Of a DNA stretch of 30,972 nucleotides, positions 3,106 to 30,545 are shown piece by piece. A program made the position numbers and the translations under genes. Each line of letters begins with the position of its first letter. Positions within the stretch are counted from its first letter, which is position 1. Source of the stretch: a virus; the IMG/VR virus record IMGVR_UViG_3300042691_017924, positions 1 through 30,972 of that record; one strand, 5' to 3'. Under the pieces are notes generated by a model, which saw only the letters and a list, made by a program, of their open reading frames with translations, did not search any database and was not told the origin of the DNA.

Positions 3106-4917
3106 TTAATCGTTTAAAATATCTTTAATTTTATTTTCTATTTCATAAATATTCTGTTGGGCCTTTTCAATGTCAAACAAATCACTAAATTCCATTTTTT
3201 CATCTCCCAACATACCTAATATCTTTGATTTTTTAGATTCACTCAATGGTGCTTCTCCGCCAGCCGGTGCTGCTGGTGGGGGAGCACCTCCACCCATGTC
3301 CATACCACCACCCGCGGCGGCTTCACCACCACCCGCAGCTTCGACCTTCTTCCTTTCTTCTTCAGGTATACCATATTTTGAATCAACCTCATCAAATACT
3401 CCTGATCTCTTAATAATATTTTGAGTATTCTGTAATTCAAAACCAACCGCCCTTTCGAGACGTTGTTGTTGTAAATCAAGTATAACCTCACTATCACTCA
3501 TACCAAGAATATTTTTCTTGGCCCATGTATGTGAAACAGGTAAAATACCTATTTGTGACTGGTCAGATGTTGCATCCTTATAAAGTGTGATTTTTTCTTT
3601 CCATTGCTCAATACGTAATAAATCCGATTGTGCGGAAGGGTTGGTTAATGATAATGAAAAATTATCTAATTCATCCTCTAAACCTAATAAATAAAGGTGA
3701 ACAAGTGCAATTTTATTTAACTCTTGTATTACCGATTTTTGAATTCTATTAATCGTTCTAGCAAAACGAATATCCATTAACGCTAAACTCTTTCCTTCAC
3801 CAACAACTTCTTCAAATCCTAAAAACGCTTTTGGGATACGTAATGCTGCCAATAATTTTTTCTGAATATATTCAATATCCGCAATCTCACCCAAGTTTTG
3901 AGCACCTGCTAATGTTTCAATTGGATTTGTCTGTGCAGGATCACGTACAGGTATGAAATAATCTTGGTCTACCGCCATTTGATTATATCTCATATCTACC
4001 TGACCATTGCGTGGGTCCGCAATTTGGTCACGTTTAAACTTATTAGCAACACGTTGTACATATGGTTCAATATCTTTATCATCCATATTACCAACAAACA
4101 CTTTAAATACCCTTCTTTCAGGCGCTCTTGATGTTCTATAAATCAACATTGCGTCTTCTGCAAGAAGTAGTTGTTTCCAAATTCTTCTTATTTTATCCAA
4201 CATTGAAGTACCATATGGTAATTTTCTGTCATCTCCAAGTAATCTGAAGTGAGCAACCTCCCAAGCCTGAAATTCCATATCTTTATTTTTCCATTGGAAT
4301 CTCAATTCTCTTGTTGGTACTTTAGAATCTTTTGTTTGTCCTGGAGTTTTCGATGCCGCACCTTCAATTCTTTCTATTTCTATATTTGGTAATTGTTGAC
4401 ATCCGATAACGCCAGATTCAGGATCTATTTTTAAGTAAACAAAATTATCACCATATTTACACAAACCTCTGGTCCACATTTGTAAATTGGTATTAATATC
4501 TAACTTATTGTTGAATAAATCTATTAGGATATTTTTGATTCTATCTGAATCCGAATATATTGTTAAGATTTCTCCTTTCTCTGATAATGTGGTAGATTCT
4601 TCTGCATAAATGTCAAGCGCCGCGGATATCTCCGGAGTAAATTCCATTGATTCATAATCATAATATGCCGCCAAACGATTTGGTTCGTAATATACAGATT
4701 GATTATATAATGACTGATCAAGTTTAGTCCATTTATCTGCAATGTATTGTGTTTGTTGTGATTGTAAAAGAGCCTTTTCGTAATCTTCTCTACTATCTGT
4801 TTTTAATAATTCGTCTTTAGAAAAATTGAATGATGGGGTTTCATCGGGTTTTTTTTGACCCGGATAACCGAACATTCTTGTGAGTTTCTGAAAAACAGTC
4901 AAATTTTGATTCGCCAT
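3106..4917 (-). CDS. Portal vertex protein, T4 gp20-like
   Basis: A 603-residue portal protein, the dodecameric DNA-entry ring at the capsid vertex that docks the terminase. Characteristic segments include AALDIYAEEST (about 99-109), the long stretch around WEVAHFRLLGDDRKLPYGTS, a clip/stem region with RIPKAFLGFEE, and GEGKSLALMDIRFARTI, all typical of gp20-type portals. Residues about 530-560 form an Ala/Gly/Pro/Met-rich linker before a charged helical tail; this insert is unusually GC-rich for the window. Gene order terminase-portal-core-protease supports the call. The sense sequence GTATTTAT ends 4 nt before the ATG. Confidence 0.95.
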   Translation of the reverse strand: MANQNLTVFQKLTRMFGYPGQKKPDETPSFNFSKDELLKTDSREDYEKALLQSQQTQYIADKWTKLDQSLYNQSVYYEPNRLAAYYDYESMEFTPEISAALDIYAEESTTLSEKGEILTIYSDSDRIKNILIDLFNNKLDINTNLQMWTRGLCKYGDNFVYLKIDPESGVIGCQQLPNIEIERIEGAASKTPGQTKDSKVPTRELRFQWKNKDMEFQAWEVAHFRLLGDDRKLPYGTSMLDKIRRIWKQLLLAEDAMLIYRTSRAPERRVFKVFVGNMDDKDIEPYVQRVANKFKRDQIADPRNGQVDMRYNQMAVDQDYFIPVRDPAQTNPIETLAGAQNLGEIADIEYIQKKLLAALRIPKAFLGFEEVVGEGKSLALMDIRFARTINRIQKSVIQELNKIALVHLYLLGLEDELDNFSLSLTNPSAQSDLLRIEQWKEKITLYKDATSDQSQIGILPVSHTWAKKNILGMSDSEVILDLQQQRLERAVGFELQNTQNIIKRSGVFDEVDSKYGIPEEERKKVEAAGGGEAAAGGGMDMGGGAPPPAAPAGGEAPLSESKKSKILGMLGDEKMEFSDLFDIEKAQQNIYEIENKIKDILND

Positions 4918-26693: not shown

Positions 26694-26701
26694 TATATTT
26701 G
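26694..26701 (+). promoter_or_regulatory. Host-type -7 box TATATTTG before tRNA-Met
   Basis: TATATTTG, with TTTTTG about 15 nt further upstream as a -33 candidate. It leads into the 33-nt leader repeat. Confidence 0.55.
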
Positions 26702-26730
26702 TAAAACAATCGGAAACGATAAAGTTCTTT
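26698..26730 (+). repeat. Leader repeat, copy 1 (tRNA-Met)
   Basis: 33 nt identical to 26860-26892. It begins at the end of the promoter box and contains a mini-hairpin ATCG-GAAA-CGAT. Confidence 0.95.
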
Positions 26731-26737
26731 TAAATAT

Positions 26738-26809
26738 TGTGAGGTAGAGCAGTGGTAGCTCGGAAGGCTCATAACCTTTAGGTCGTTGGTTCGAATCCAT
26801 CCCTCGCAA
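26738..26809 (+). tRNA. tRNA-Met (anticodon CAU)
   Basis: Acceptor TGTGAGG/CCTCGCA, D arm GAGC-AGTGGTA-GCTC, anticodon stem GAAGG/CCTTT around CTCATAA, variable loop AGGTC, T arm GTTGG-TTCGAAT-CCATC with a T-T mismatch, discriminator A, no encoded CCA. An elongator-type CAU tRNA; identity as lysidine-modified tRNA-Ile2 cannot be excluded. Confidence 0.92.
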
Positions 26810-26855
26810 CAGAAAAAAAGTTTTATAAAAATTTGGAAATATAAAAAATGTTTCT

Positions 26856-26863
26856 TAATTTTG
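26856..26863 (+). promoter_or_regulatory. Host-type promoter of the large structured RNA
   Basis: TAATTTTG (-7) with TTTG about 20 nt upstream (26832-26835) as -33 element. It is separate from the tRNA-Met promoter. Confidence 0.58.
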
Positions 26864-26892
26864 TAAAACAATCGGAAACGATAAAGTTCTTT
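26860..26892 (+). repeat. Leader repeat, copy 2 (large structured RNA)
   Basis: 33 nt identical to the tRNA-Met leader at 26698-26730, including the GAAA mini-hairpin. Confidence 0.95.
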
Positions 26893-27797
26893 GACTCAAA
26901 ATATTGGCCGCCTATGGTCAACAAAATAAACCATGAAAGTGGTATAAAGTGAATCTGAATTAGTTATTCAGGTTTGCGGTTTCGGTAACGGAACTCGAGT
27001 AGGCAAGCGAGATATCATTAAACCTTTTGTACCGAGGGTAACACTGTAGGGAAAATGGTTTGGTGACCAAGCGATACCGGTCGTTTGGTTGAGGTGGGAA
27101 CACCAATAAAAATAACTCGTAGGATTATCGTAAGAAGTGTGGTTCATCCAATTATACAATTACGTGATTCAATATGATGGAGGTCTTAAAACCGAAAGGT
27201 ATGATGATGTACAGGTGGTGCTGTTATTGTCCTTGATTTGAATCTACCAAGGTTCATTTTTCGAAGATGTCCAAGAGTATGGAGGTAGGGATATCTCAGA
27301 GGGTAGTTTAGTATCGTGTTGTTCAAAAGATGACATGGCTGGCAGACGAGCCACTACCTTCCAAATCGGTAACTAAATCACTTTGTTAATTTTGGTTTAA
27401 CAAACTACAATAAAATAAAGGAAAAGTGCTCGTCAGTCATTAGAGACAGGTGACTACATAGTCGTGAGGGGTTCACGGCCACAAAGGGTTCCAAGCCTAA
27501 TGTGAGTTTCCAGAAAGTTCTCTAGTCCCGCAAGGACTAATTGGGGTGGCAATCTCGAAGAGTAATGAGTATGGTGAGAGTATCTGATGACTTAAGGATT
27601 GGTTAATCTAATTGACCGTCACTGATTGGTACAGTTCAAAAGACTGTGGATATGAAAGGAAACAATAATCTTTCTAAAGTCAATCACTAAAACTTGTAAT
27701 CTCAGAGTTTTTTTCTTTGTTTAAAAAAACAAAGTGGTGGAGATAAAATAAAATTATTGGTTAGTTCCCGAAGTCAGAAGAAATTCTGACTTTTTTT
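26864..27797 (+). ncRNA. Large structured non-coding RNA, GOLLD/ROOL-like candidate
   Basis: About 0.93 kb from promoter to terminator, with no credible gene in any frame and higher GC than its neighbours. Hairpins read by eye, in order: TATGGT/ACCATG (26913-26935), CTGAAT/ATTCAG (26955-26971), GTTTCG-GTAA-CGGAAC (26979-26994), TTGG/CCAA (27060-27070), GGTG-GGAA-CACC (27093-27104), ACC-GAAA-GGT (27191-27200), CCTTG/CAAGG (27231-27252), GGTAG/CTACC (27302-27358) enclosing TGGC/GCCA, GACT/AGTC and CGTGA/TCACG (27452-27477), TAGTCC-CGCAA-GGACTA (27523-27539). A 3' three-way junction, TGATTG/CAATCA (27623-27686), holds ACAGT/ACTGT and GAAAG/CTTTC. Three GNRA loops fit tertiary docking. Size, complexity and tRNA neighbour recall GOLLD and ROOL RNAs of phages; family membership is inferred, not shown. 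Confidence 0.8.
27771..27797 (+). terminator. Rho-independent terminator of the large RNA
   Basis: Perfect 9-bp stem AAGTCAGAA / TTCTGACTT with GAAA loop and seven T. A weaker hairpin CTTTGTTT/AAACAAAG lies at 27714-27733. Confidence 0.93.
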
Positions 27798-27855
27798 GTT
27801 TTATAGATATACCAATATTATTTGTTTTTGTTGTAAGATTATTTATATTATATTA

Positions 27856-29781
27856 ATGAATAAAAAAATAATAAGTTTTATTAACCCAAATTTTTCCCAA
27901 GGTCCGAAAGAACTTAACGCGTATTATTTACCATATAGTGTTGGTGTTTTATGGTCATATGTTAATCAATTTGAGTTTATACAAGAAAACTATGAATTAG
28001 GTGAAGTTATTTGGAAAAGAGAAAAAATTGATGATGTTGCTGATAGGTTAAAAAATCATGATATAGTTGGTTTTAGTTGTTACATATGGAACGCGAAGTA
28101 TTGTTATGAATTATCTAAAAGATTAAAAAAATTAAATCCAAAAATTTTAATAATTTTTGGTGGCCCAGAACCGGCAATAGAAAAGATAGATTTTTTTAAG
28201 AATCACCCATATATTGATGTTTGTGTTGTAAGAGAAGGTGAAATTACTTTAAAAAATTTATTGGAATCATTCGTTGTTAGTGATGATTTTCGAAACATTA
28301 ATGGTTTAGTTATCAATAATAATGGATTACCTCACAAGACAGGAATAACTGAAAGGATATCTGATTTAGATACAATACCAAGTCCATATTTAAATGGTTT
28401 TTTTGATAAAATTATAAAAGATAATCCTGAATGTATTTGGAATGCAACTGTCGAAACAAATAGGGGATGTCCTTACATGTGTACTTTTTGTGATTGGGGT
28501 AGTTTAACATATAGTAAAATTAAAGTATATGGGTTAGATAGGGTTTTTGATGAATTAGAATGGGTGGGAAAAAATAAATGCGACTACATTAGTTTTACTG
28601 ATGCGAATTTTGGAATTTTTGAAGAAAGAGATTCAATGATTGCCGATAAATTAATTGAAGTTCAGAACAAATATAATGCACCGAGAAATTATGCAGTTGC
28701 ATGGGCCAAAAATCAAAAGAAATCTGTAATTGAAATTGTTAGGAAACTTATTAATTACGGTAAATCTAGAATAGGATTAAATCTTAGTGTACAAAGTTTA
28801 GATGATGGTGTTTTAAGTGCAATTAAAAGAAAAAATTTACAAACTAATAAAATAGAAGAAGTTTTTTTAATGTGTGAGAAAAATGGTATTCCTCTATATA
28901 CCGAAGTTATTCTCGGTCTACCAGGAGAAACATTAGAAACATTTAAAGAAACTCTTTATAAACTTTTTAGGATAAATAATCATAGTGGTATATCAGTATA
29001 CCAGGCACAATTATTAGAAAATTCAGAAATGAATTTATCTCAAAGATTGGAATATAAAATTGAAGGTGCGTTAGTTTATGATTATCTATATGGTTACAGT
29101 ACCGAAAATGAGGTTATGGAGTCCATAGAAGTGGTCACATCAACAAAAGATTTACCAAGAGAAGATATGATTGCAGCACAAGTATATTCTTGGTTTTTAA
29201 ATACTTTTCATATTGATGGTATTACAAGTTTTATTAGTAGATTTTTATACAATTATTATAATATCGATTATTCAGAATTTTACGAAAAACTCTTTTTGCA
29301 TATCCAAAAAGATAAATGGTTAAATGATGAAGTTAAGTCAATTACCGTTAATTATAAAAATTGGACTGATTATGGAAAAATAGATTACCCACCAATTGGT
29401 AATATGGAAGTTTATGGTTTTAATCTTATTCATAGTACTATAGCAAAAATACAATTAGAAAATAAATATGAACATGTGTTTTCGATAGTTGAAGATTTTG
29501 TAAAAACCAATTTTAATATTGGTGAAGAATTTTATGATGAATTAATTGATTTACAAAGAAATTATTTTATTGATTATAATAAAGTAAATACATATCCAAA
29601 AACAGTTGAATACAAATATGATATTTTAGGGTTTGTTCAAGAAAATTTAGATTTAAATAAACATAGTATTTTGACATATGATTTTCCAGAAAATAAGGAA
29701 ATGTCATTATTACGTTTTTGTGAAAATTTATATTTTGGTAGACGTAGGAATTTTGGTAAGGCATGGATTAATAAAAAATAA
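27856..29781 (+). CDS. Radical SAM enzyme with B12-binding-like N-domain
   Basis: A 641-residue enzyme from MNKKIISFINPN. The N-terminal 150 residues form a Rossmann-type, B12-binding-like domain (DIVGFSCYIWN, ILIIFGGPEPA, VVREGE); no DxHxxG cobalamin loop is visible. The radical SAM core has RGCPYMCTFCDWG with Cys205, Cys209, Cys212, then SFTDANFGI, LNLSVQSLDD and EVILGLPGET. The last 230 residues are unrecognised. Related proteins occur in marine T4-like phages; substrate unknown. The longer frame from 27796 is rejected because it starts within the terminator T-run; TTATTTAT lies 9 nt before the chosen ATG. Confidence 0.92.
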   Translation: MNKKIISFINPNFSQGPKELNAYYLPYSVGVLWSYVNQFEFIQENYELGEVIWKREKIDDVADRLKNHDIVGFSCYIWNAKYCYELSKRLKKLNPKILIIFGGPEPAIEKIDFFKNHPYIDVCVVREGEITLKNLLESFVVSDDFRNINGLVINNNGLPHKTGITERISDLDTIPSPYLNGFFDKIIKDNPECIWNATVETNRGCPYMCTFCDWGSLTYSKIKVYGLDRVFDELEWVGKNKCDYISFTDANFGIFEERDSMIADKLIEVQNKYNAPRNYAVAWAKNQKKSVIEIVRKLINYGKSRIGLNLSVQSLDDGVLSAIKRKNLQTNKIEEVFLMCEKNGIPLYTEVILGLPGETLETFKETLYKLFRINNHSGISVYQAQLLENSEMNLSQRLEYKIEGALVYDYLYGYSTENEVMESIEVVTSTKDLPREDMIAAQVYSWFLNTFHIDGITSFISRFLYNYYNIDYSEFYEKLFLHIQKDKWLNDEVKSITVNYKNWTDYGKIDYPPIGNMEVYGFNLIHSTIAKIQLENKYEHVFSIVEDFVKTNFNIGEEFYDELIDLQRNYFIDYNKVNTYPKTVEYKYDILGFVQENLDLNKHSILTYDFPENKEMSLLRFCENLYFGRRRNFGKAWINKK

Positions 29782-29798: not shown

Positions 29799-30545
29799 AT
29801 GAGAATAGTTTGTATTTCTGACACCCATAGTCTCCACAATAAAATAATTCACCCATTTCCCGAGGGTGATGTTTTAATTCATGCGGGTGATTGTACCAAT
29901 GTCGGTAAAGAAAAAGAAATTGAAGAATTTATACAATGGTTTCAAAATATAAAAGGATTTGATACCAAAATTTTTATTGCAGGAAATCACGATTTTGGTT
30001 TTGAAAATTATAACGGTATACGTCATAGTAATGAAGCGCCTTGGTTATATCATCTAATAAATGAAGAGAACTTATCCCAATCTAATGTTGTTTATTTGCA
30101 TGATTCTGAGTTTATAATTGAACATCCCGAATTTTCAAGACCAATTAAATTTTACGGGTCACCATGGCAACCAGAATTTTATAATTGGGCATTTAATTTA
30201 CCAAGAAATGGATGGGAGTTAGAAGTTAAATGGAGTCAAATACCAGATGATACGGATATTTTAATTACCCATGGACCACCTCATGGATGTAGAGATTTCA
30301 TCCAAGATAGATACGGAGGATATAGTGTTGGTTGTGAGTTATTAAGGTTCCGCGTGGAACAATTTAACCCATTAGTAAATGTTTTTGGACATATACATGG
30401 GGCATATGGATCTGCACTAATTAAAGACACTCTATTCGTCAATGCATCCACATGTGATGAAGGTTATAAACCGATAAATAAACCTATTGTAATTGAACTG
30501 AAAGAATATGATGGTGAAATAATTGCCACTCATATTGATGAGTGA
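29799..30545 (+). CDS. Calcineurin-like metallophosphoesterase (MPPED type)
   Basis: A 248-residue phosphoesterase with the whole dimetal set: SDTH (Asp8, His10), HAGDCT (Asp31), AGNHDF (Asn63, His64), ITHGPPHG and FGHIHGAYG. Spacing and the GPPHG motif are close to MPPED1/2-type enzymes, some of which hydrolyse 2',3'-cyclic nucleotides. It could therefore supply an end-healing step for the RNA-repair genes at 15007-17045, but it is not linked to them and this is a guess. No signal peptide, so cytoplasmic. Confidence 0.9.
   Translation: MRIVCISDTHSLHNKIIHPFPEGDVLIHAGDCTNVGKEKEIEEFIQWFQNIKGFDTKIFIAGNHDFGFENYNGIRHSNEAPWLYHLINEENLSQSNVVYLHDSEFIIEHPEFSRPIKFYGSPWQPEFYNWAFNLPRNGWELEVKWSQIPDDTDILITHGPPHGCRDFIQDRYGGYSVGCELLRFRVEQFNPLVNVFGHIHGAYGSALIKDTLFVNASTCDEGYKPINKPIVIELKEYDGEIIATHIDE

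Follow-up and report, generated by a model that had tools for sequence, protein, structure and literature searches.

The structure of GOLLD RNA, determined by cryo-EM for env-38, resolves the two regions of the molecule as separate domains, with a linker in the 3' region that is disordered (PMC12286853). In a Lactobacillus brevis prophage, GOLLD is not needed for phage production (PMC7567579). The second point of reference is the bacterial rRNA operon, which has one boxA set at its start and another ahead of the 23S gene. The rrn antitermination complex of E. coli contains NusB and S10; boxA is both necessary and sufficient for its formation, and it may also assist the folding of nascent rRNA (PMC10250234).

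The locus analyzed here lies in a 30,972-nt stretch of viral DNA, the window (IMG/VR record IMGVR_UViG_3300042691_017924). The T4-like character that a sequence-only reading had ascribed to this phage is borne out by its genes, which include a Portal_T4 match (E 4e-76), a T4-type terminase and a T4-type prohead protease. Promoter type is the basis on which the metagenomic phages discussed below are assigned to Bacteroidota; the promoters of the window phage are of that type, and its assignment draws in addition on the weak similarity of its terminase, whose nearest isolated relatives include Flavobacterium phages at an identity of only 29%. The same reading had described about 930 nt without a gene between a TAnnTTTG promoter and a terminator, and all of this is found: no plus-strand ORF of at least 60 amino acids starts within 26864-27797 (one 63-aa antisense ORF overlaps the interval), a promoter consisting of TTTG, 20 nt and TAATTTTG ends at 26863, and a stem-loop followed by a T-run closes the unit. 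The features, whose coordinates in the interval are accurate to a few bases, are the following:

26694-26732, plus strand: head of the tRNA-Met unit, with promoter TATATTTG, hairpin ATCG-GAAA-CGAT and boxA-like GTTCTTTTA
26738-26810, plus strand: tRNA with anticodon CAU, called tRNA-Met (ARAGORN; Rfam RF00005, 64 bits)
26832-26863, plus strand: GOLLD promoter, TTTG (26832-26835), 20 nt and TAATTTTG (26856-26863), read from the sequence
26871-26882, plus strand: leader hairpin ATCG-GAAA-CGAT in a boxB-like position, paired in relatives
26886-26895, plus strand: boxA GTTCTTTGAC, kept in relatives and in Bacteroidota rRNA leaders and spacers
26896-27298, plus strand: GOLLD 5' domain, helices 26905-27297 (102 pairs, 96.4% of cells paired, 80 two-sided)
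27299-27708, plus strand: GOLLD 3' domain (Rfam RF02032, 316.2 bits, covarying), with a variable unpaired linker at ~27362-27422
27770-27797 (end approximate), plus strand: intrinsic terminator, a stem-loop at 27770-27793 with a 10-pair stem, then a T-run

From promoter to terminator the unit spans about 920 nt (~0.9 kb), untranslated; a length above 800 nt, a phage genome and a nearby tRNA gene are traits that it shares with GOLLD loci. On the 3' side of GOLLD, window 27796-29781 encodes a radical SAM protein with a B12-binding domain. The metallophosphoesterase encoded at window 29799-30545 follows GOLLD in one relative (L007) with no radical SAM gene between.

The Rfam GOLLD model matches 27299-27708 on the plus strand over its full length (model positions 1-416) with 316.2 bits and E 5e-90, a score about twice the gathering score of 150. 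The sequence-only reading had left the choice between a GOLLD relative and a new class. The first part of that statement stands, with covarying helices in both halves, and the second falls because the RF02032 match is full-length: 26864-27797 holds a gene for GOLLD RNA and not a new RNA class. The ROOL model (RF03087), which that reading had also proposed for comparison, gave no match in a full-window scan or in a scan of the region at an E-value of 1, which rules out a ROOL identity, and other large-RNA families did not match. The ~800-nt RNA of phage ICP1 was considered as a GOLLD and rejected, RF02032 not matching ICP1. Further afield, GOLLD was found in the chromosomes of none of 296 Bacteroidota genomes (under strict filters and with no positive control), a search aimed at ROOL leaders found no ROOL among 299 genomes, and a consensus pattern meant for other GOLLDs returned no matches.

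Relatives were gathered from IMG/VR with a DNA pattern drawn from the GOLLD 3' domain, a second 3'-domain pattern and the leader. Two pattern matches (L032, L130) were set aside, their apparently coding flanks pointing to matches by chance; the relatives among the matches listed were reduced to 41 non-redundant sequences and aligned from boxA to the 3' end, a sample skewed to what one 3'-domain pattern picks up in IMG/VR. For these 41, RNAalifold predicts 203 pairs, of which 152 show two-sided changes, with 96.7% of cells paired, a percentage that is flattered because the structure was predicted and scored on the same alignment. A control in which the 3' letters were redealt, and which leaves the relatedness among the sequences in place, gave a mean of 78.8% paired, with 104 pairs showing two-sided changes; sliding the partners gave at most 45%. 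The better evidence lies in the two-sided changes. The covariation that the sequence-only reading had called for is thus present in both domains. The 3' domain accounts for 97 pairs (97.1% of cells paired, 72 two-sided, among the same relatives). RF02032 models this half only and leaves 26905-27297 outside; the 5' part, with its 102 pairs, scores like the 3' part, and the half that Rfam does not model is therefore a real structured domain. Only 4 pairs, none with covariation, cross between the domains, and this paucity, together with the unpaired linker, agrees with the published GOLLD structure (PMC12286853). The hairpins, GNRA loops and 3' three-way junction that had been noticed earlier also stand up to this analysis: the loops lie at 26935-26938 (GAAA), 27097-27100 (GGAA) and 27194-27197 (GAAA), to which the leader hairpin adds a GAAA at 26875-26878, and the junction consists of helix 27623-27628/27681-27686 enclosing hairpins that start at 27630 and 27654.

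What the sequence-only reading had not noticed is the leader, a hairpin and then boxA, which follow the TAnnTTTG promoter and precede the GOLLD fold. The window carries it nearly twice. A 33-base exact repeat (TTTGTAAAACAATCGGAAACGATAAAGTTCTTT), comprising the promoter end, the hairpin and most of GTTCTTTGAC, has one copy upstream of tRNA-Met and one upstream of GOLLD; GTTCTTTTA, before tRNA-Met, has one mismatch to boxA. Among the matches listed, 40 of the 41 non-redundant loci have boxA at the 5' end of GOLLD. There, GTTCTTTG lies 640-780 nt upstream of the 3'-domain anchor, with no occurrence on the reverse strand; the chance expectation for the count over 41 loci, by simulation, is a mean of 0.18 and a maximum of 2. 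Apart from three contigs, the relatives had been chosen by their 3' domain, so that there was no selection for the leader. The one locus outside the 40 is L077, in which boxA heads a stretch with CRISPR-type repeats first and GOLLD after. In 36 relatives a TAnnTTTG box lies 15-85 nt upstream of boxA, and 35 of these also have a -33 element; some relatives have no promoter close to boxA. The letters of the leader hairpin vary while its pairing is kept (TCGGA/TCCGA, TCAGGA/TCCTGA and others), with a mean stem of 5.6 in the relatives versus 4.0 in shuffles.

The leader is not confined to GOLLD. Its composite pattern occurs 9 times in seven phage records (~1.8 Mb), in GOLLD and tRNA regions, and the reversed pattern not once. 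BoxA leaders also head tRNA genes in phages; two tmRNA genes downstream of GOLLD (L007:7779-8171 and L108:8067-8461) are headed by a TAnnTTTG promoter and boxA; in two roseophages, the boxA candidate GCTCTTTGACAATTT heads the tRNA array that contains GOLLD; and in the huge phage LR745206 (634 kb) hairpin and boxA are retained between tRNA-Met and GOLLD. The Acinetobacter, Mycobacterium and Streptococcus phages examined have no such motif around the GOLLD 5' end, which rules out boxA as a universal GOLLD feature, and neither has the 642-kb phage L196. GOLLD can therefore be made without boxA, and these absences mark boxA as belonging to the expression context of Bacteroidota-type phages, not to the GOLLD fold.

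The neighborhoods of these genes hold other RNAs. Among the matches listed, 22 of the 41 non-redundant loci have a tRNA near GOLLD, and in 19 of these the nearest one carries a CAU anticodon (14 of the 17 that lie upstream and 5 of the 5 downstream, the latter ~10 nt after GOLLD), even in tRNA-rich phages; it may be Met or lysidine-type Ile. Five relatives (L138, L140, L131, L041 and L095) share a short conserved hairpin motif, CCTGTCCTATTAnGAGTAGGGGGT, between tRNA-Met and GOLLD, ~860-945 nt before the GOLLD anchor and in 4 of the 5 with its own boxA ahead, possibly an undescribed small RNA. Directly 5' of GOLLD, L077:3575-4060 (IMGVR_UViG_3300042335_000796) contains a promoter, boxA, an anti-repeat-like segment at ~3775-3810 and three repeats of 36-37 nt spaced 66 nt, and resembles a small phage CRISPR array with tracrRNA; the 6.7-kb locus has no cas gene and the contig no Cas12f-type protein or domain. 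In two roseophages, DSS3_MAL1 and MD18, GOLLD is directly followed by a tmRNA of the permuted, alphaproteobacterial kind (L200:2591-3025 and L201:2744-3159), and the Rfam GOLLD match itself contains a tRNA-Arg.

The boxA motif also stands in the rRNA operons of Bacteroidota. Of the 16S leaders with sufficient sequence, 14 of 17 contain GTTCTTTGA or a near variant, as do 17 of 20 16S-23S spacers, in both sets with no occurrence on the reverse strand; an Adhaeribacter spacer (L146) has CGATAAAGTTCTTTGACATATTGGC, which resembles CGATAAAGTTCTTTGACTCAAAATATTGGCC of the window. The layout, too, matches an rRNA-type leader, in the order promoter (26856-26863), hairpin (26871-26882) and boxA (26886-26895), and is the same in the relatives. 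An untranslated RNA of ~0.9 kb faces the problem that rRNA faces, from which we infer that the phage uses host rRNA machinery for GOLLD, tRNA and tmRNA; the similar leaders at phage tRNA and tmRNA genes give the element the look of a stable-RNA expression signal common to phage and host. Host RNA polymerase would start at the TAnnTTTG promoter, and the nascent RNA would expose the hairpin and then boxA (GUUCUUUGAC), as a host rRNA leader does. NusB and S10 (NusE) would bind boxA and convert the polymerase to an rRNA-type, Rho-resistant antitermination complex capable of finishing the ~0.9 kb of untranslated RNA, the terminator at 27770-27797 would end the transcript, and the 5' and 3' domains would fold separately and come together in a cage made of RNA only, like that of the GOLLD whose structure is solved. 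That polymerase in this Rho-resistant mode completes a GOLLD transcript that folds into a cage is, in our estimate, quite probable. The broader proposition concerns the stable-RNA genes of Bacteroidota phages in general: GOLLD, tRNAs, tmRNA and, in a single contig, an array of CRISPR type would all be fronted by a promoter-hairpin-boxA leader of host style, through which the host machinery for rRNA antitermination and folding makes the RNA cage. We hold this to be likely, with a little less assurance.

Other readings of the leader have to be weighed against this one. The locus might be a plain GOLLD gene in which GTTCTTTGA is conserved for its part in the structure of the 5' end of Bacteroidota GOLLD, pairing for example with AAAG of the linker, and not an antitermination signal. 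A conserved cross-domain helix, in which 4 bases of boxA (26889-26892) pair with 27423-27426, is indeed predicted, but it shows no two-sided change, GTTCTTTGA also occurs in host rRNA operons, and promoter, hairpin and GTTCTTTGA head tRNA and tmRNA genes, which lack the GOLLD sequence for it to pair with; we regard this reading as unlikely. More doubtful is the notion of a decoy, a GOLLD cage whose many boxA copies soak up NusB-S10 and so lower host rRNA synthesis in the phage's favor. Within the transcript, boxA does fall outside the GOLLD helices that covary, and a cage would presumably carry many copies of it; the decoy nevertheless needs boxA to survive in the mature RNA, and it is the less likely because single tRNA genes, like tmRNA genes, carry the same leader, which fits expression better. 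Just as improbable, or slightly more so, is that GTTCTTTGA is a promoter part or a phage-regulator site common to this class of gene and unrelated to boxA: the motif is near promoters in phages, but its letters match the rRNA element, and in host 16S-23S spacers and in the tRNA-Met/GOLLD gap of LR745206 it lies far from any recognizable promoter. That the RNA is after all a new class with a merely superficial likeness to GOLLD has a negligible chance: its 5' half is not covered by the Rfam model and differs from phage to phage, but the full-length RF02032 match (E 5e-90) stands against this, and published GOLLDs likewise join a conserved 3' to a variable 5' region (PMC12286853).

The preferred reading, expression of GOLLD through an rRNA-type leader, turns a near-universal boxA into a concrete hypothesis for how a long, intricately folded untranslated RNA is made without being cut short by Rho, and it connects the giant RNAs of phages with the apparatus that synthesizes rRNA. 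The window RNA is a further GOLLD. Like env-38 (RF02032; PMC12286853) it exceeds 800 nt, resides in a phage genome, adjoins tRNA-Met and combines a full-length 3' domain match with a separate, variable 5' domain; the known GOLLD is a homo-14-mer RNA cage held by kissing loops and A-minor contacts (bridges B1-B10), a form that the window RNA may share. The two also differ in the promoter-hairpin-boxA leader, an rRNA-type element that the literature searched, which did not extend to the original 2009 GOLLD description, neither describes for GOLLD nor mentions together with it. ROOL (RF03087) is similar in being a large RNA of phages that often has tRNA genes nearby and builds a cage of RNA only (PMC12286853), but its model finds no match in the window. 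The bacterial rRNA operon, with its boxB-boxA leader and spacer and its rrn antitermination complex, shares with the phage leader the order promoter, hairpin, boxA, the boxA letters of the Bacteroidota operons and the service of a long untranslated RNA; in the phages, in contrast, the leader drives a giant RNA, tRNAs and tmRNA instead of rRNA, and the Nus factors would presumably act there as they do in the host.
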